From a virus, in IMG/VR virus record IMGVR_UViG_3300034198_011109, positions 1-26,830 of that record: DNA of 26,830 nucleotides; one strand, written 5' to 3'. Below are positions 19,635 to 26,830 of the stretch, one piece after another. Positions within the stretch are counted from its first letter, which is position 1, and each line of letters starts with the position of its first letter. Made by a program: the position numbers and the translations under genes. The notes beneath the pieces were generated by a model. That model ran no database searches. It saw nothing but the letters and a program-made list of their open reading frames with translations, and was not told the origin of the DNA.

Positions 19635-20399
19635 ATGGCAGGAAATCAAGCACCCATTTATTCGAGAGTAGGCGACATTGAAGGCTCAGTAATTTTAACA
19701 ACGGCAGCTGCTGATTATACCGGTAACAACGTTAATAATACTATTGTGTATCAAGCAGATCCAACCAACGGTGGATTTATTCAGCGTTTAAGATTTAAGG
19801 CTCTTGGTACTAACGTTGCAACTGTTGCTCGTATATATCTCAATGAAGGATATCCGGCACTTACGACACAAGCTTTGGTACCAGGAACTCCTACTGCATC
19901 ACTTAGTGGTACTGGTGGTGCATTACAAGTTGGTAGTTATTATGCGGTAGTTCAATCAATTGACCAATACGGACAACCATCACAGTTTTCAGCAGAAAGT
20001 ACAGTAGCAAACACAACATCTAATACATCAACAATTACATTTTCTTGGGCTGGTGCCACAGGCGCTAATACATATCGTTTATTTGTTGGTCCATCTCCTA
20101 GTGGTGAAGTAATTTATTTTCCGGTATCAGGAAATACAACATCATATACTGTGGCAAACGTTGTTCCTAATTTAGTAACAAACTTACCATCACAAGGTCA
20201 ACCAAAAGACTTTGTTAGCGTTAATATGTTTTATGGTGAAGTTTCTTTACCAGCAACTACTGCAACACAAACTGCGGCAACAACTGACGTAGATTATCCA
20301 ATGAATATTGCATTACCCCCTGGTTATCACGTTCTTGTTGGATTAGGAACTACTGTTGCTGCTGGTTGGACTGTAACGGCAATTGGTGGTGCATATTAA
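19635..20399 (+). CDS. Virion protein with a fibronectin-like domain nested inside it
   Basis: The 254-residue protein consists of an outer beta domain split in two. Residues 1-72 contain NGGFIQRLRFKALGTNVATV and end in ARIYLNEG; residues about 192-254 contain FYGEVSLPATT, YPMNIALPPGYHVLVGLG and AAGWTVTAIGGAY. These two halves together match the plan of a common small phage virion protein in which the two parts are joined by a short loop. Here about 119 residues intervene, and their pattern (GSYYAVVQSIDQYGQPSQFS, then TITFSWAGATGANTYRLFVG) is that of a fibronectin type III-like sandwich. AGGAG at 19622-19626 lies 8 bases before ATG. It is coded between fibre 3 and the glycine-rich genes. The role is probably structural or in surface attachment. 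Confidence 0.72.
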   Translation: MAGNQAPIYSRVGDIEGSVILTTAAADYTGNNVNNTIVYQADPTNGGFIQRLRFKALGTNVATVARIYLNEGYPALTTQALVPGTPTASLSGTGGALQVGSYYAVVQSIDQYGQPSQFSAESTVANTTSNTSTITFSWAGATGANTYRLFVGPSPSGEVIYFPVSGNTTSYTVANVVPNLVTNLPSQGQPKDFVSVNMFYGEVSLPATTATQTAATTDVDYPMNIALPPGYHVLVGLGTTVAAGWTVTAIGGAY

Positions 20400-20401
20400 C
20401 A

Positions 20402-21853
20402 ATGCTGGATCTTAATCATGTTCTTGCGACTCCAGGTTTAGATTCACAGTATTTTCAAGGACCTGGATGGGTAACATCACCCACAGCAATAACTATTTCT
20501 TCGATGGCTCCTGCTGGCGCTTTATTTCTAGCCTCAGGTAACTATCAAGTTGGTCAAGCAATTCAAATTACTGGTAATTATTTACCAGGTACCATTACTG
20601 GCTACACATCCGGTGCTATCTATTATATTCTCACCGTGAACGGATCAACAATTCAAATCAGTGCAAGTCCTGGTGGTGCTCTAGTAACATCATCGTTTAC
20701 GAACATAACTGATGTTACTGTGGCAACTGGCGGCGTTTTAACTGTATCTGCTGGAGATTGGAAAGTTGGTCAACCAATTACTATAACAGGTACATTTACC
20801 GCAGGTTCTATTACTGGTTATGTGTCTGGTACCACTTATTATATTATCACAGTTACCAGCACAACATCAATTACTATTAGTGCAACTCTAGGTGGTTCAG
20901 CAGTAACATCAACTGCGGGTACTGCGACTCCGGGAGCTACATTTACTGTTGTTGGTGATGCAACAGTAAGCGTACTGATTCCGCAATGGCAAACTTGGCG
21001 TAAACCTCGTGGAATTAAATGGATTTATATGTTAGGTGTAGGTGGTGGGGCGTCTGGTGGATGTGGAGTGAATACAGCAACAACATCGGGTGGTGGAGCA
21101 GGAGGTGGTGGCGGTGGACAAACAACATTAATGATTCCAGCAATGTTTGTTCCTGATATTCTTTATATTGCTGCCGGTAATGGTGGACCAGCGCAAAATA
21201 CAAGTGGTGCAGTTGGTCTTGGTGGAACTCCAACTTACATATCTATTGAACCAAATACAGGAATGGATTTAAATAAAAATTTATTTTGGGCAAATCCTGG
21301 TACTATTACTGGTTCTGCAGCTACTGCTACAACAGGTGGTGGTACTGGAGTTCTTGCGACAGCAGCAACAATTGGTTATATGCCATTAGCTGGACGAGGA
21401 TTATATAATTTACAGACAGCCGCAGCAGGTCCTGGCGCAGGAGGTTCGCCGAATGCTGTTGGGGGCGATATTAGTAATGCTCCAAATACAGGAAACGTGA
21501 GTTTTCCCGGTAGTGGTGGTGGTGGCACTAGCGGTGCTGGTGGTGGAATTGGCCAATCGGGCTTGATTTTAGGACAAGATTTTTACCCTCTCTTGTCTAC
21601 TGGAGCAGCAGCAGCATCAGGTTCAACTCCAGCAGTAGATGGACAAGGTGGTTTTATTGCAAATCATTTTATATTTAATGGTGGTGGTTGTGGTGGCGGA
21701 GGTGCAACTACTACTGCAGGTGGTATTTCTGGACGTGGTGGTAACGGAACACCTGGATCGGGTGGCGGAGGTTCAGGTGGTGCAACTACAACAAATCCTA
21801 ATGTACAATCTGGTGCAGGCGGGCCAGGTTTTGTTCTTATATTAAGTTGGTAA
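20402..21853 (+). CDS. Glycine-rich adhesin-like protein A (first of three paralogues)
   Basis: The start chosen is the ATG at 20402 (483 residues), because it gives MLDLNHVLATPG, which matches MLDFNHVLSTPG and MLDFNHILSTPG of the two paralogues; an upstream in-frame ATG at 20366 would overlap the previous gene. Residues about 29-172 hold two 72-residue beta repeats missing from the paralogues. From about 195 the shared domain begins (QWQTWRKPRG, hydrophobic strand, then GGGAGGGGGG and IPAMFVPDILYI), with further glycine clusters to the C-terminal GPGFVLILSW. A 'W-x-K-P-x-G plus hydrophobic strand plus poly-Gly' plan is typical of glycine-rich phage fibre-tip domains. Poly-Gly stretches framing variable loops recall gp38-type adhesins with polyglycine helices. 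Host binding is inferred. Confidence 0.75.
   Translation: MLDLNHVLATPGLDSQYFQGPGWVTSPTAITISSMAPAGALFLASGNYQVGQAIQITGNYLPGTITGYTSGAIYYILTVNGSTIQISASPGGALVTSSFTNITDVTVATGGVLTVSAGDWKVGQPITITGTFTAGSITGYVSGTTYYIITVTSTTSITISATLGGSAVTSTAGTATPGATFTVVGDATVSVLIPQWQTWRKPRGIKWIYMLGVGGGASGGCGVNTATTSGGGAGGGGGGQTTLMIPAMFVPDILYIAAGNGGPAQNTSGAVGLGGTPTYISIEPNTGMDLNKNLFWANPGTITGSAATATTGGGTGVLATAATIGYMPLAGRGLYNLQTAAAGPGAGGSPNAVGGDISNAPNTGNVSFPGSGGGGTSGAGGGIGQSGLILGQDFYPLLSTGAAAASGSTPAVDGQGGFIANHFIFNGGGCGGGGATTTAGGISGRGGNGTPGSGGGGSGGATTTNPNVQSGAGGPGFVLILSW
20488..20919 (+). repeat. Two 216-base (72-residue) beta-domain repeats in protein A
   Basis: The motifs YQVGQAIQITG...GTITGYTSGAIYYILTV...IQISASPGGA and WKVGQPITITG...GSITGYVSGTTYYIITV...ITISATLGGS recur at a spacing of 216 bases. 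This 'VGQ-I-ITG...ITGY-SG-YYI...IS-GG' sandwich-like module is found in many phage structural proteins. Confidence 0.78.
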
Positions 21854-21854
21854 A

Positions 21855-22853
21855 ATGTTAGATTTTAATCACGTTCTTTCTACTCCAGGCGCAGATATTC
21901 AGTATTTTACTGCTGTCAGCTCAGCCGCTCGATCCATTAGCCAAAATGGACAACAATGGCAAACTTGGCGTAAACCTAGAGGTTGTAAATTTATTTATAT
22001 GATAGTAGTAGGTGGTGGGGGTTCTGGTGGATGTGGAGTGAATACCGCAACAACATCAGGTGGTGGTGGAGGAGGTGGTAGTGGTGGACAAACAACATTA
22101 ATGATTCCAGCAATGTTTCTTCCTGATGTTCTATACATTCAATGTGGTATGGGCGGTAGACAACCAGCAACATTAACAAGTGGTGCTACTGGTGTTGCTG
22201 GGATTGGTACAATGGCTATATGTGAACCTAATAGTAGTTCAAGTCAATTAATTGTAATAAATGCTAATGGCGGTGGTGGTGGTGGTGCAGCAAGTACTAC
22301 TGCTGCTGGTGCTGCTGGTACTGCTGGAGCTACAATTCAACTTAACGCAACACCATTTTTGGGACGAGGAATATTTAGAATTTATGCTGGCCAAGTCGGC
22401 GCCACCGGTGGTAACGGTACTGCGGGTACTGCTGGTACTAGTGTAACATTACCAACAACAGGCCCAATGGTCACAGGTGGTAGCGGTGGTGGAGGAAAAA
22501 CCGCAACCGTGTTTGGTGCAGGCTCAGTAATTACTATGCCCACAGGTGGTGTTAGCACAGGTTCTTCTGATTTCTTTCCATTGACTGGAACAACACCGGC
22601 AGCTGCTACAGGTGCAACGCCAGCTGCCGCAGGACAAGATGGAATAATTGTAAGAAATATGTTAATGAATTTTGGTGGTGGTGGAGGTGGCGCAGCTTCA
22701 GAAACATCAGGTGGTATTGCTGGTGCTGGTGGTAACGGAGCTCCAGGTTGCGGTGGTGGTGGTGCTGGTGGATCCTCATCAACTACAGGCGTAACAACAC
22801 TAGCAAGACCAGGTGATGGCGGCGATGGTTTTATTTACATTATAAGTATATAA
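21855..22853 (+). CDS. Glycine-rich adhesin-like protein B (second paralogue)
   Basis: The 332-residue protein shares the N-terminal LDFNHVLSTPG, the QWQTWRKPRGCKFIYMIVVG strand block (from residue 34), a glycine cluster (GGGGGGGSGG), and TTLMIPAMFLPDVLYIQCGMG. The middle differs in sequence from A and C, with its own glycine clusters (NANGGGGGGAAST, TGGSGGGGKT). The C-terminal part is shared again: NFGGGGGGAASETSGGIAG, GNGAPGCGGGGAGG and DGFIYIIS. Cysteines recur at positions shared with A or C. It begins one base after the A stop and ends one base before the C start, with little Shine-Dalgarno signal, so translation is probably coupled. Expected role: fibre-tip or virion-surface adhesin, with the variable middle as candidate receptor contact. 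Confidence 0.75.
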   Translation: MLDFNHVLSTPGADIQYFTAVSSAARSISQNGQQWQTWRKPRGCKFIYMIVVGGGGSGGCGVNTATTSGGGGGGGSGGQTTLMIPAMFLPDVLYIQCGMGGRQPATLTSGATGVAGIGTMAICEPNSSSSQLIVINANGGGGGGAASTTAAGAAGTAGATIQLNATPFLGRGIFRIYAGQVGATGGNGTAGTAGTSVTLPTTGPMVTGGSGGGGKTATVFGAGSVITMPTGGVSTGSSDFFPLTGTTPAAATGATPAAAGQDGIIVRNMLMNFGGGGGGAASETSGGIAGAGGNGAPGCGGGGAGGSSSTTGVTTLARPGDGGDGFIYIISI

Positions 22854-22854
22854 T

Positions 22855-23823
22855 ATGTTAGACTTTAACCATATTCTTTCTACTCCAGGTTATGACTTTC
22901 AACAGTTCATTGGAACTGCTAGTGCTACTATAGGTACAGGATCCGGTGGCCAACAATTACAAACTTGGAGAAAACCAAGAGGTATAAATTGGGTTTACAT
23001 CATTGGCGTAGGTGGCGGTGGATCAGGAAGTGTTGGTGGTAGAGCAGCTGCTACTGCTGGTGGAGGTGGTGGTGGAGGTTCAGGCGGTCAAACAACATTA
23101 TTAATACCCGCCAGTATGATTCCAGACACACTCTATATTCTTGCTGGTCAAGGTGGTATTTCTGGAACAACTGTTGCTCTTGCGGGTACAGCAGGAACTC
23201 CAACATATGTATTAATTGAACCTGATACAACACTCACAGTTAATCTTACTTTATTACTTGCGAATGGTGGTTCTCCAGGTGGCGCTGAAGCAAATGGTGG
23301 TAGTCCTGGTGGTACTGGTGGTACATCTGTAACCATTGCCAATATGCCATTGGCAGGCAGAAGCGCATACAACTTTTTTGGAGGACAAACAGGTGGTACA
23401 GGTGGTAGCAGAGCAGCTGGTGCTGGTGCAGCTATTTCAATACCCACAACAGGATTGATGGTCACAGGTGGCCAAGGTGGTGGTGGCGGAGGTAATACGC
23501 CAAATGCTGGCAATGGATTTCTCGCTAGCACAGGTTCACTAGGTCAAGATTTTTTCCCCAATACAACAGGGGGAACGCAAAGTGTTAGTGACCTGCCAGC
23601 ACCAGCAGGATCTCCTGGTTTTATTAGTCGTAACTTTTTGATGAATTTTGGTGGTTCAGGCGGTGGCGGCTCAAGTTCGATTACAGGTGGCATAGCAGGT
23701 GCTGGCGGTGATGGTGCACCAGGATGTGGCGGTGGCGGTGCAGGTGCTTCAAACTCAAATAATCCTACAGTATCACCGGCAGGTAACGGTGGACCAGGAT
23801 TTGTTTATATCATTTCATTCTAA
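22855..23823 (+). CDS. Glycine-rich adhesin-like protein C (third paralogue)
   Basis: The 322-residue protein follows the same plan: LDFNHILSTPGYDFQQF, QLQTWRKPRGINWVYIIGVG near residue 34, GGGGGGGSGGQTTLLIPASM, a variable middle (NGGSPGGAEANGGSPGG), MPLAGRSAYNFFGGQ, and a C-terminal block NFGGSGGGGSSSITGGIAG with APGCGGGGAGA and GFVYIISF. Compared with B, the loop after the first glycine cluster has lost the CGVNTATTS sequence shared by A and B and reads VGGRAAATA. It is the last gene before the gp13 promoter. The three proteins could form alternative or mixed tips on one of the fibres; which fibre is unknown. Confidence 0.75.
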   Translation: MLDFNHILSTPGYDFQQFIGTASATIGTGSGGQQLQTWRKPRGINWVYIIGVGGGGSGSVGGRAAATAGGGGGGGSGGQTTLLIPASMIPDTLYILAGQGGISGTTVALAGTAGTPTYVLIEPDTTLTVNLTLLLANGGSPGGAEANGGSPGGTGGTSVTIANMPLAGRSAYNFFGGQTGGTGGSRAAGAGAAISIPTTGLMVTGGQGGGGGGNTPNAGNGFLASTGSLGQDFFPNTTGGTQSVSDLPAPAGSPGFISRNFLMNFGGSGGGGSSSITGGIAGAGGDGAPGCGGGGAGASNSNNPTVSPAGNGGPGFVYIISF

Positions 23824-23879: not shown

Positions 23880-24653
23880 ATGGCTACCATTACCAACAGA
23901 CAAGATTTTATTGATTATTGCAAGCGTAGGCTTGGATTTCCCGTCATCGAAATTAACGTGGATGACGACCAGGTTAATGACCGTATCGATGACGCACTTC
24001 AATATTTTCAGGATTATCATTTTGATGGACTTCAAAAGGTCTATTGGATTAAAGTACTTAATAATACCGATATTGCAAACCGGTATTTGGATGCCAGCCA
24101 AGCAAAAGATTCTCAGGGAAATAATTTAGAAATTGCTGGTATTTCTCGTATATTCCCAATATCCGATTCTCAAGCAAACGTTAATATGTTTGACCTTCGT
24201 TATCAACTTCGTTTAAATGAGTTGTATGACTTTACTTCCGCATCATACATCAATTATACTTTAACAAATCAACACTTACGCTCTCTAGAAATTATGTTTA
24301 CTGGAGAAGTTCCTATTCGATTCCAAAGACATACTCAAAGATTGTATATTGATTGGAATTGGGGTAATTCTGAAGCTCCTACTGGTACAGTTGTTATCGC
24401 TGAAGCGTATGCTTTGATTAATCCGGATGTTTATAATTTGGTATGGAATGACCGTTGGTTGAAAGAGTATGCCACAGCACTTATTAAAAGAACTTGGGGT
24501 AACAATATGGCTAAGTTTGATAACATTCAATTACCGGGCGGAGTTACATTGAATGGCGGAAGAATTCTTCAAGAAGCTACGACAGAAATTGAGCGTCTTG
24601 AAAGAGAGATGGAAAATAATTACGGAAGTCCTTTAGAATTTTTTATGAATTAA
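23880..24653 (+). CDS. gp13: Neck protein, T4 gp13-like
   Basis: The 257-residue product is clearly of the gp13 type: ITNRQDFIDYCKRRLGFPVI, then EINVDDDQVNDRIDDALQYF at about 25-45, a central block with FDLRYQLRLNELYDF, the strand RFQRHTQRLYIDWNWG, and a C-terminal region with WLKEYATALIKRTWGNN and a terminal helix (ERLEREMENNYG). In T4, gp13 (309 residues) and gp14 complete the neck between the portal and the tail. ATG at 23880 is preferred over the adjacent in-frame TTG at 23877, because AGGAG at 23869-23873 is then 6 bases away. It is transcribed from the late promoter at 23851. The C-terminus looks natural, so the following HNH gene has not cut into it. Confidence 0.9.
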   Translation: MATITNRQDFIDYCKRRLGFPVIEINVDDDQVNDRIDDALQYFQDYHFDGLQKVYWIKVLNNTDIANRYLDASQAKDSQGNNLEIAGISRIFPISDSQANVNMFDLRYQLRLNELYDFTSASYINYTLTNQHLRSLEIMFTGEVPIRFQRHTQRLYIDWNWGNSEAPTGTVVIAEAYALINPDVYNLVWNDRWLKEYATALIKRTWGNNMAKFDNIQLPGGVTLNGGRILQEATTEIERLEREMENNYGSPLEFFMN

Positions 24654-24654
24654 T

Positions 24655-25200
24655 ATGTACCATAAACACCACATTATACCTCGACATATGGGTGGATCCG
24701 ATGATCCATCTAATTTAATTAAGTTAACAATACCAGAACATGCTGAAGCTCATCGTGTTTTATGGGAAACACATGGAAAAATAGAAGATTACTATGCTTG
24801 GCAAGGATTATTAGGCAATGTAACAGGTTATGAAATATTAAAAGGAATAATGGGATCTGAAAAAATGAGAAACCATCTTTCCAAAAAAGGCAAAGAATAT
24901 TGGAATACTTTATCTGAAGAAGAAAAAAATAAAAAACTTGAAAAATTTAATGCATCAAAAATAGGTAATAAACACGCATTAGGTAAAACTTGGACGTTAT
25001 CAGAACAATCTAAAAACAATGTTGCAGAATCAAAAAGTGTAAATTGGTTGATAACTTTTCCTAATGGTAAAAAAGAAATTATAAAAAACATGAATAAATT
25101 TTGTAGGGATAATGGTTTAGATCAAGGCGCTATGTCTAATGTTGCCAAAGGTTTAAAAAGTCACCATAAAAACCATTTATGCCAAAAGGTAGGAACCTAA
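24655..25200 (+). CDS. HNH homing-type endonuclease inserted between gp13 and gp14
   Basis: The 181-residue protein has an HNH core at its very start (HKHHIIPRHMGGSDDPSNLI, then KLTIPEHAEAH), with His6, Asn20 and His29/His33 as likely catalytic and metal-site residues. A Lys-rich middle (about 75-125) contains a NUMOD3-like patch (GNKHALGKTWTLSEQSK). The C-terminal part (WLITFPNGKKEIIKNMNKFC, then GLDQGAMSNVAKG and HHKNHLC) resembles the small DNA-binding repeats of phage homing endonucleases. Such enzymes cut alleles lacking the insertion and spread by repair. It starts one base after the gp13 stop with no Shine-Dalgarno, and is visibly richer in A than its neighbours. The gene breaks the otherwise contiguous gp13-gp14 pair. 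No intron or intein boundary is seen. Confidence 0.85.
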   Translation: MYHKHHIIPRHMGGSDDPSNLIKLTIPEHAEAHRVLWETHGKIEDYYAWQGLLGNVTGYEILKGIMGSEKMRNHLSKKGKEYWNTLSEEEKNKKLEKFNASKIGNKHALGKTWTLSEQSKNNVAESKSVNWLITFPNGKKEIIKNMNKFCRDNGLDQGAMSNVAKGLKSHHKNHLCQKVGT

Positions 25201-25204
25201 AATC
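25188..25204 (+). promoter_or_regulatory. Shine-Dalgarno positioned for an ATC codon at the gp14 start
   Basis: GGTAGGA (25188-25194) inside the end of the HNH gene is followed after 7 bases by ATC at 25202, the codon where the gp14 family start is expected. In this frame a TAG at 25190-25192 closes the upstream side, and only GAA, CCT and AAA lie between it and the ATC. There is no ATG, GTG or TTG in frame until TTG at 25268. Confidence 0.6.
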
Positions 25205-26086
25205 GCAACCAACCATTATTTTAGCAATTATAATAGCAAATATTCAGAGCAAAGATTAGTTGAAGATTTGTTGGTTGAGTCCATAAAAATTATGGGCTTT
25301 GATGCTTATTATTTGGCAAACACAAATGATGAAGCTAGAGACCTTTTATACGGTGAAGATCCAGTTAAGAAATTTCAATCTGCATATGTGGTTGAAATGT
25401 ATATGTCCAGCATTATGGAATATTCTGGTGAAAGAGAATTGTTTTCTAAATTTGGTTTAGAAATTAAAAACAACATGGAAGTGGTTGTGTCTAAAAGATC
25501 ATTTTCACAAAGAGTTCCACAAAACCTTTTTACACGACCAAGAGAAGGTGATTTAGTTTACATACCTTTTGGTAACGGCACAGGTGAACTTTTTGAAATT
25601 ACTTTTGTTGAGCAGAACAAAGATATGATGATGTTAGGCCGTAAATATCCATTCTTCTATGAAATGCGTTTAGAGAAATTCAAGTATGCTCAAGAAGTCA
25701 TTAATACTGGTATACCAGACATTGATATTGCTATGGACAATTCAGCATATTCAATTGATTTACAATTAGGTTCTGGTGTAGGCAGTTATGTATCAAAAGA
25801 AATTGTATATCAATCACATGACGGCACTTTAGCCAATGCAACCACTTCAGCTATGGTACAAAGTTGGAACGATCCAACTAATACATTAATAGTTACTAAT
25901 ATTGCTGGAGAATTTGTAGACGGACAAACAATCATTGGCGCATCAAGTGGTGCATCTTATTATTTGTCAACTTACGATCCACTAGCAACAAGTATTCACA
26001 ATGAAATTTACGATAATAAACTGATAGAAAATAATGCCAATTCAGTTATTGACTTTTCAGAAACTAATCCGTTTGGAAGCATATAA
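25202..26086 (+). CDS. gp14: Neck protein, T4 gp14-like, with apparent ATC start
   Basis: Read from ATC the product is 294 residues and starts (M)ATNHYFSNYNSKYSEQRLVE-DLLVESIKIMGFDAYYL, the usual opening of gp14 proteins in aquatic T4-like phages. Further support comes from AYVVEMYMSSIMEYSGEREL, the block RPREGDLVYIPF near 112-123, LFEITFVEQNKDMMMLGRKY, YEMRLEKFKYAQEVINTGIP near 150-170, and a C-terminal Gly/Ser beta segment. In T4, gp14 (256 residues) joins gp13 in the neck and contacts the tail terminator. The first conventional start, TTG at 25268, would remove 22 residues, including the SEQRLVEDL helix, and has no good Shine-Dalgarno. Its stop overlaps the gp15 ATG (TAATG). A natural G-to-C change, a rare AUC start, or a sequencing error are all possible. 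Confidence 0.82.
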   Translation: MATNHYFSNYNSKYSEQRLVEDLLVESIKIMGFDAYYLANTNDEARDLLYGEDPVKKFQSAYVVEMYMSSIMEYSGERELFSKFGLEIKNNMEVVVSKRSFSQRVPQNLFTRPREGDLVYIPFGNGTGELFEITFVEQNKDMMMLGRKYPFFYEMRLEKFKYAQEVINTGIPDIDIAMDNSAYSIDLQLGSGVGSYVSKEIVYQSHDGTLANATTSAMVQSWNDPTNTLIVTNIAGEFVDGQTIIGASSGASYYLSTYDPLATSIHNEIYDNKLIENNANSVIDFSETNPFGSI

Positions 26087-26830
26087 TGGCAGATACATCA
26101 TATAACCGAATCATTCGTAAACTGGTTGTTGGTTTTGGCAACTTGTTTAATAACATTACATTGGTTCGATATAATCCAGATAATACAGAACAAGAAAGAG
26201 TCATTGTTCCAATTATCTATGCGGCCAAAGAATTATATGTTAAACGATTAGAAGAAGATTATAATTTGGACAAAAAAGTTCAAATTACTTTACCTAGATT
26301 ATCATTTGAAATGACTGGTCTTTCTTATGACACCTCTAGAAAACAAAATACAAATTGGAAATCTTTTGCAAATACAGGTAAAGGAGTTGTTTCACAATAC
26401 AATCCAGTACCTTATGATTTTGATTTTTCTTTATATCTTTATGTTAGAAATATTGAAGATGGTACTCAAATTATAGAACACATTCTTCCGTATTTTACTC
26501 CTGATTATACTATTAAATTAAATTTGGTTCCTGAAATGGGAGTAGTTAAAGAAATACCTGTTGTATTAAAAGATACTAGTCAAGAAATTATCTATGAAGG
26601 TGATCGCAATAGTGGCACAAGAACAATTATTTGGACTTTAAACTTTACAGTTAAAGGTTTTATATTTGGTAAAACTTCTACAGCAGGTTTAATTAAAACT
26701 TCTATTACAAATATTTTGGATAAAATTACTACTGCTGATGTAATTCAATTTAATATGTCAACTTCAGGAGTAGGAACATATAAAATTGGTGAAGGTGTTT
26801 ATCAAGGTTTTTCTCCGATAAATTCAACCG
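26086..26830 (+). CDS. gp15: Tail sheath stabiliser/tail terminator, T4 gp15-like (partial, 3' end outside window)
   Basis: The first 248 codons are present. ATG at 26086 shares its A with the gp14 TAA. The sequence follows T4 gp15 closely in order: YNRIIRKLVVGFGNLFNNIT, VIVPIIYAAKELYVKRL, ITLPRLSFEMTGLSYD, VVSQYNP (101-107), EHILPYFTP (131-139), and GTRTIIWTLNFTVKGFIFG (about 176-194), matching the T4 segments SQYNPSP, EQILPYFQP and RRRIEWSLTFEVNGWMYP. gp15 forms a hexamer that caps the finished tail tube and sheath and docks onto the gp13/gp14 neck. T4 gp15 is 272 residues, so little should be missing. It is transcribed with gp13 and gp14 from the promoter at 23851. Confidence 0.92.
   Translation, partial: MADTSYNRIIRKLVVGFGNLFNNITLVRYNPDNTEQERVIVPIIYAAKELYVKRLEEDYNLDKKVQITLPRLSFEMTGLSYDTSRKQNTNWKSFANTGKGVVSQYNPVPYDFDFSLYLYVRNIEDGTQIIEHILPYFTPDYTIKLNLVPEMGVVKEIPVVLKDTSQEIIYEGDRNSGTRTIIWTLNFTVKGFIFGKTSTAGLIKTSITNILDKITTADVIQFNMSTSGVGTYKIGEGVYQGFSPINST

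Follow-up and report, generated by a model that had tools for sequence, protein, structure and literature searches.

Translation of the E. coli gene pcnB, which begins with AUU, is reportedly limited by its inefficient start codon; the reading that we propose for gp14, a neck gene that is essential in phage T4, is alike in that dose would be limited through such a codon, and pcnB is a single host gene. Starts of the class AUU, AUC or AUA (AUH; ATH in DNA) are also found in infC, which begins with ATT in E. coli and with ATC in Streptomyces, and IF3 represses noncanonical starts (in the relevant parts of PMC5472188). In S. aureus, cvfC1 (AUU), ccpN (AUA) and infC (AUA) carry extended Shine-Dalgarno motifs (in the portion of PMC13009471 that covers them), and the weaker starts GUG and UUG tend toward compensation by stronger Shine-Dalgarno sequences (likewise from part of PMC5622118).

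Judged from its sequence, the gp14 case looks like the near-cognate starts of infC, cvfC1 and ccpN. As in infC, where the AUH start is a translational control point (portions of PMC5472188 and PMC13009471), the start codon of gp14 may act as such a point. Unlike in infC, the AUH of gp14 has repeatedly been swapped with AUG among relatives, and because gp14 is a virion gene and does not encode IF3, autoregulation of the infC type is impossible for it. The likeness to cvfC1 (AUU) and ccpN (AUA), whose starts were mapped by Ribo-Ret, lies in an AUH codon behind an extended Shine-Dalgarno; these are, in contrast, cellular genes, for which the available extract of PMC13009471 describes no link to mobile elements. 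Streptomyces sigR resembles one of the alternatives weighed below, in that IF3 represses its noncanonical start and a canonical replacement leads to overproduction (PMC5472188, in part), but its codon is GTC and not AUH. Finally, T4-like phages carry free-standing HNH and GIY-YIG endonuclease genes between other genes, as does the locus studied here, whereas the part of PMC2988022 that treats them describes no neighbour whose start was replaced by a near-cognate codon. Among the matches listed from the open-licence PMC literature, there was no near-cognate start of a phage gp14, which is weak evidence of absence; the portions of PMC10448857 and PMC11497404 that come nearest to the subject do not bear on it either.

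The gp14 locus in the window

The window, by which we mean the whole stretch of DNA that was analyzed, is an entire IMG/VR virus record of 26,830 bases, and carries T4-like phage late genes, in which gp13 is followed by a probable HNH endonuclease gene, then by gp14 and by the beginning of gp15 (Table 1). The assignment of gp14 follows from its match to PF11649 (102.4 bits, cut-off 25) and from its position between gp13 and gp15. The HNH protein scores 20.6 bits against Pfam HNH, slightly short of the cut-off of 21.4, and matches PHROG 655 more clearly; a single base separates the ATG of its gene from the gp13 TAA. Upstream of gp13, at 20366-23823, are three related tandem glycine-rich ORFs with an N-terminus like MLDFNHxLSTPG.

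Table 1. Features around the gp14 start, in window coordinates
Feature	Position	Strand	Remarks
gp13 (neck, head-tail adaptor Ad2)	23880..24653	+	ATG start; PHROG 211, 1.2e-40
Probable free-standing HNH homing endonuclease gene, 181 aa, in the gp13/gp14 interval	24655..25200	+	PHROG 655, 4.8e-18; stop TAA at 25198-25200
Putative initiation leader GTAGGAACCTAAA	25189..25201	+	same bases encode the HNH C-terminus VGT and the HNH stop
TAG, closes the gp14 frame on the upstream side	25190..25192	+	
ATC, proposed near-cognate gp14 start codon	25202..25204	+	relatives' alignment, codon survey, selection from codon 2
gp14 (neck, head closure Hc2), 294 codons plus stop	25202..26086	+	PF11649, 3.6e-29; PHROG 460, 1.1e-65
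TTG, codon 23, first canonical start downstream	25268..25270	+	use would delete the conserved gp14 N-terminus
gp15 (tail sheath stabiliser), extends beyond the window end	26086..26829	+	PF16724, 1.4e-62; ATG overlaps the gp14 stop

An earlier note on this DNA had described a gp14 frame that is closed by a TAG, offers no canonical codon until a TTG, and shows family-like sequence from an ATC onward, and all of these coordinates hold. Downstream of the TAG the frame reads GAA CCT AAA ATC GCA ACC AAC CAT, with no ATG, GTG or TTG between the TAG and 25268. Counted from the ATC, the Pfam T4_neck-protein match begins at residue 4 and the PHROG 460 match at residue 3, and the insert-free relatives L002, L003 and L005 have ATG at exactly the position of the ATC, in the context TAA-N-ATG-GCN. 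In other words, the gp14 frame of the window has no canonical start, and its conserved sequence begins at the ATC. The HNH stop is separated from this ATC by one base, and GGTAGGA occupies 25188-25194. Counted back from the ATC, the GG that forms the Shine-Dalgarno core of the leader lies at -10/-9, and positions -3 to -1 are AAA.

The same codon is found in L001, which is near-identical to the window (over 3,830 bases it differs at 6, all of them within 25981-26011) and, since it possibly comes from a related sample, gives only moderate support. L008, with a gp14 65% and an HNH protein 73% identical to those of the window, has ATT at the same position. Among isolates, megablast returned no match to window 24000-26830, and a short blastn query matched only at E values of about 8.

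Start codons and leaders among relatives

Two gp14-protein searches yielded 85 loci, 83 of them containing the start; the alignment used as query in the larger search included the window and L008, which introduces a mild bias, and loci were left out of the counts if their alignment fell short of the gp14 N-terminus or if fewer than 30 bases preceded it. The 83 starts comprised 73 ATG, 6 ATT and 4 ATC and no other codon, or, as 55 distinct contexts, 49 ATG, 4 ATT and 2 ATC (6/55 ATY). A further pattern search, independent of the conserved tail described below but itself imposing AA at -3/-2 and the YFNNY motif, matched at least 93 places in loci not collected before. At least 31 of these were gp14 genes starting with ATT, ATC or ATA, some of them only 34-49% identical to the query set. 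A scan of genome contigs matched 6 Flavobacterium/Polaribacter contigs, presumably by chance. The combined set of 155 was reduced to 137 and then to 133 rows by dropping rows that shared both their start codon and their first 150 residues with another row, and rows shorter than 130 residues; it includes 12 isolates. Among the matches listed, these 133 distinct gp14 starts were 76 ATG, 37 ATT, 18 ATC and 2 ATA, with GTG or TTG in none of the 133, and since the pattern searches enriched for ATH, these counts are not to be read as frequencies. All 20 isolates examined, hand-picked from the roughly 2,300 phage records that match gp14, start gp14 with ATG; one of them, S-H34, carries a homing endonuclease gene in the gp13/gp14 interval.

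Sorted by the gap between gp13 and gp14, the set holds 53 ATG and 19 ATH rows below 60 bases, 4 ATH rows at 60-399 bases, 20 ATG and 26 ATH rows at 400 bases or more, and 3 ATG and 8 ATH rows of unknown gap. The gaps of the 19 short-gap ATH rows (of 57) measure 9-56 bases, 15 of them 9-23 bases, which is too short for an endonuclease gene. The ATH start of gp14 is therefore not confined to endonuclease junctions. The earlier note had proposed to align the gp14 starts of related phages with and without the HNH gene, and the outcome is mixed: the insert-free relatives L002, L003 and L005 do have ATG, but ATH also occurs where there is no insert of endonuclease size.

Several observations suggest that ATH serves as the start. 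In 55 of the 57 ATH rows no ATG, GTG or TTG lies between the in-frame stop and the ATH, and this stop is the fourth codon upstream in 41 of them. In L300 and L306 a TTG precedes the ATH in frame by 4 codons, and in 7/57 rows the first canonical codon downstream is already codon 5, so that alternative starts are possible in those rows. Across the ATH rows the first downstream canonical codon falls at many different positions, and 5/57 rows have none within the first 40 codons. For codons 2-22, dN/dS was 0.073 in 15 ATH pairs, drawn from 33 eligible rows, and 0.070 in 30 ATG pairs; dS approaches saturation (it is 3.8 over codons 2-11), which makes these ratios rough. The N-terminal codons 2-22 are thus under protein-level selection in the ATH lineages.

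ATH and ATG rows also differ in their leaders. Using a generic anti-Shine-Dalgarno and rows that are not independent of one another, we obtained median Shine-Dalgarno duplex energies of -6.5 for ATH (n=19) against -2.7 for ATG (n=53) where the gap is below 60 bases, and of -6.7 for ATH (n=30) against -4.0 for ATG (n=20) where it is 60 bases or more; these medians exclude 11 of the 133 rows, which lack a gp13 end. With the same anti-Shine-Dalgarno, energies of -5 kcal/mol or lower were found in 47/57 ATH and 10/76 ATG rows. In 15 independent pairs drawn from the gp14 tree, the strong Shine-Dalgarno went with ATH in a mean of 10.4 pairs, the opposite held in 0.6 and both were equal in 3.9 (median p 0.006, range 0.0005-0.065). 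Among the 10 ATG rows with a strong Shine-Dalgarno are 4 behind inserts (L117, L121, L151 and L162), so AUG together with a strong Shine-Dalgarno is tolerated in places. Predicted RNA folding around the start did not differ (median MFE -5.3 in 57 ATH and -5.9 in 76 ATG rows, p 0.97). The reading of the ATC as a near-cognate start behind a well-spaced Shine-Dalgarno, as first put forward from the window, is supported by these relatives.

The endonuclease insert and its conserved tail

In the window, the HNH ATG at 24655 occupies the position that the gp14 ATG has in the empty-site relatives L002, L003 and L005. The 547 inserted bases end with GTAGGAACCTAAAATC, immediately before gp14 codon 2, so the 3' end of the HNH gene provides GTAGGAACCTAAA-AUC for gp14. 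We searched IMG/VR for the corresponding tail: the motif GTAGGNACCTAAAAT followed by YNC occurred in 53 stretches, 49 of them on gp14 codon 1 (38 ATT, 11 ATC), to which the window adds 1 ATC, while the same motif followed by RNC occurred in 18 stretches, none at gp14 (tail + ATR 0/18). The gene upstream of the tail is an HNH endonuclease in the window, L008, L071 and L182, GIY-YIG-like in L042, L072 and L185 (by eye), and shortened or decayed in L046, L187 and L191 (L191 by eye). L181 and L228 keep the tail and ATY with no endonuclease gene; L049, in which the HNH frame ends 26 bases upstream, keeps the tail and ATY too. The short-gap ATH rows L181, L193, L212 and L228 still carry the tail, and others, such as L287, L289, L291, L293, L300, L315, L321 and L336, have unrelated leaders.

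That the junction might be a scar of insertion, another suggestion of the earlier note, is partly borne out for the window, where the HNH gene sits on the ancestral gp14 ATG and its end supplies leader and ATC. It extends to some of the 19 short-gap rows, namely the four that carry the tail and L286, which has what look by eye like remains of an HNH start; the leaders of other rows are unrelated. Taken together, the sequences suggest that a mobile endonuclease can bring its neighbour a replacement initiation site.

A number of further features were observed at these junctions. Window positions 25190-25199 (TAGGAACCTA) form an inverted repeat, TAGG-NA-CCTA, that would be a perfect palindrome if N were T, and a DNA-binding role is possible. 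In L228, TAATGAGAGTAGGTACCTAA in the 18 bases upstream of gp14 leaves a five-codon ORF (MRVGT) that overlaps the gp13 stop, the endonuclease being absent. In L286, IHKHHIIPRHMGG in the 42 bases before gp14 resembles the first HNH residues and runs directly into leader and ATT (by eye), and this gap reads like an endonuclease start left behind. A second HNH-like gene (L002:1522-2223 and L008:1021-1725) is in frame with copied first ~15 codons of gp13 and is followed by a complete gp13, as if the endonuclease had taken over a second copy of the 5' end of the gene that it targets. At the gp13/gp14 junction of L010-L015, positions 2117-2839 hold an ORF with a GIY-YIG-like N-terminus (by eye) and a C-terminus like that of the window HNH, and gp14 starts with ATG. 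A possible GIY-YIG endonuclease gene lies at the gp14/gp15 junction of L002 (3955-4614), where L016 has an HNH gene.

For the history of the start codon, a quick gp14 tree was built with the first 25 residues removed; its long branches make deep placements unsure, and 8 isolates fall outside it. On this tree the ATG/ATH label changes at least 26 times, 15 of these changes being forced by starred branches, against a shuffled mean of 43, and C and T interchange at least 17 times within the ATY rows. Close relatives can differ, as do the window (ATC) and L002 (ATG), which are 90% identical. The simplest account would be that leader and start recombined together, with or without the endonuclease.

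The noncanonical start is, as far as tested, specific to gp14. A gp13 start was found in 100 of the 133 loci, 99 being canonical and 1 lying off the contig end, and a gp15 start in 126, of which 125 are canonical and the remaining one is followed, by eye, by an ATG at the next codon. Moreover, we compared 101 stop-to-stop frames with homologs between a 156,657-base ATT-type contig and an ATG-type contig plus the window, and in this one genome comparison, judged on flagged cases, gp14 was the only sense gene whose conservation clearly extends past its first canonical start. The ATT-type contig (L258:10546-10962 and L263:3506-9123) has 27 tRNA genes, for all amino acids but Met, and a tmRNA gene call with the tag ANDEKFALAA, whereas the 7 tRNAs of L269, the ATG-type contig, include two for Met(CAT). 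An initiator-like phage tRNA-Ile was considered and rejected, as the tRNA-Ile(GAT) on the ATT-type contig of 156,657 bases resembles an elongator (by eye).

Explanations for the AUH start

We consider it probable that gp14 is initiated at a near-cognate AUH codon, whose weakness is offset by a strong Shine-Dalgarno and which limits the dose of gp14, and that in the window the HNH gene replaced the original AUG. Translation of the window gp14 would begin, presumably with fMet, at the AUC at 25202. It would be one case of an arrangement that recurs in uncultured T4-like phages, in which gp14 has a short leader to itself, with a strong Shine-Dalgarno, ahead of AUU, AUC or AUA, the leader type having GG at -10/-9 and AAA directly before the start. 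Most other collected members instead combine AUG with a weaker Shine-Dalgarno, and as a rule no more than 4 bases separate the AUG from the gp13 stop (in 46 of the 53 ATG rows with gaps below 60); since the AUG-type start lies so close to this stop, translational coupling to gp13 is likely for them. Moderate amounts of gp14 would result from either combination, a strong Shine-Dalgarno with a weak codon or a weak Shine-Dalgarno with AUG, which would make the AUH a brake on dose; damping of gp14, raised earlier as a possibility, is supported as such. In the window, the HNH gene would occupy the former gp14 AUG site and carry a substitute initiation site in its 3' end.

Dose alone may not explain the choice of AUH, because GTG and TTG, which would be expected if any weaker codon sufficed, are absent from all 133 rows. 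Discrimination by IF3 or a constraint on base 3 would predict this absence; a pure dose model does not. We entertain, as less likely than not, an extended reading in which IF3 proofreading sets the dose or timing of gp14 in a large group of uncultured T4-like phages, and in which GTAGGNACCTAAAAUY is a portable cassette. AUU, AUC and AUA, never GUG or UUG in our sample, would then stand behind a strong Shine-Dalgarno; endonucleases would bring the cassette when they take over the gp14 AUG, and it would outlive them as a scar.

Somewhat more doubtful is the narrower idea that AUH persists on account of its rejection by IF3, gp14 being made mainly when proofreading relaxes during infection. The use of AUU, AUC and AUA, with the IF3-accepted GUG and UUG at 0/133, is consistent with it, as is the repression by IF3 of starts other than ATG, GTG and TTG, infC itself having ATT in E. 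coli and ATC in Streptomyces (again from part of PMC5472188). A phage-encoded IF3 was sought and rejected, however, as an IF3_C domain was found in 0 of 8 related records, some of them fragments, against 10 of 14 control genomes.

Resistance to cutting, which the earlier note had raised, is unlikely to be the cause. It would place base 3 of the gp14 start in the homing target, where a change from G to H protects, with the strong Shine-Dalgarno merely compensating. Many ATH loci have an insert or remnant (26 of 57 at 400 bases or more, 4 at 60-399), at gp14 the tail is never followed by a start with G or A (0/18), and AUH without GUG or UUG fits a base-3 constraint; a TAAAATG would, moreover, nearly recreate the TAAYATG junction of relatives. 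Against this, 19 of the 57 ATH gaps are below 60 bases, and although some hold remnants, the eight rows from L287 to L336 named above have leaders unlike the tail, for which immunity does not account. Furthermore, L009 has ATG at its 3' junction despite an HNH protein 77-78% identical, and 20 ATG rows have inserts of at least 400 bases.

Termination-reinitiation, in which ribosomes that finish the HNH frame at its TAA would restart at the ATC one base on, is less likely still. Stop and ATC adjoin in the window and in other tail loci, but the tail and ATY persist where the HNH frame ends 26 bases upstream (L049) and where there is no endonuclease gene (L181 and L228). We accordingly rejected HNH-coupled reinitiation as a general cause, and the dependence of gp14 on the HNH gene or its stop, as first supposed, is not supported as a general cause, given the same L049 and the 19 of 57 ATH rows with gaps of 9-56 bases. 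Two other routes into the gp14 frame were rejected as well: stop-codon readthrough from gp13, because in L228 the frame has TAA, TGA and TAG between gp13 and the ATC (by eye), and a frameshift at the ACC-TAA end of the HNH gene, because that gene is missing from L181 and L228 and the HNH frame of L049 stops earlier.

We give almost no weight to a sequencing or assembly error, or to a true start at the TTG at 25268: a single contig could hold an error, and a TTG is present, but ATT, ATC and ATA in many divergent phages make an error implausible (L001 agrees, and 49 tail contigs and at least 31 further gp14 places show the same class), while codons 2-22 are under selection and the position of the first downstream canonical codon varies, with none in 40 codons in 5/57. 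An intron or translational bypass linking the shared HNH/gp14 ATG to GCA is just as improbable, for although the insert of the window lies exactly between ATG and GCA, the HNH frame fills it, ATH also occurs in 15 rows with gaps of 9-23 bases, and no Rfam match at gathering score, including to a group I or II intron catalytic core, was found in the five sources searched (the window, L001, L002, L003 and L005).

Near-cognate AUH starts are documented for few cellular genes (in the parts of PMC5472188 and PMC13009471 concerned), and here such a start is predicted in a virion gene. Across many phages, gp14 shows all three AUH codons, repeated swaps with AUG, and a trade-off between Shine-Dalgarno and start codon among relatives; with these swaps and this trade-off, nature provides a comparative test of the ways in which one initiation signal makes up for another, and start-codon discrimination gains a clean reporter system. 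Gene callers that accept only ATG, GTG and TTG would truncate or misplace gp14 in such genomes. For the phages themselves, the pattern looks like a translation brake built into gp14.
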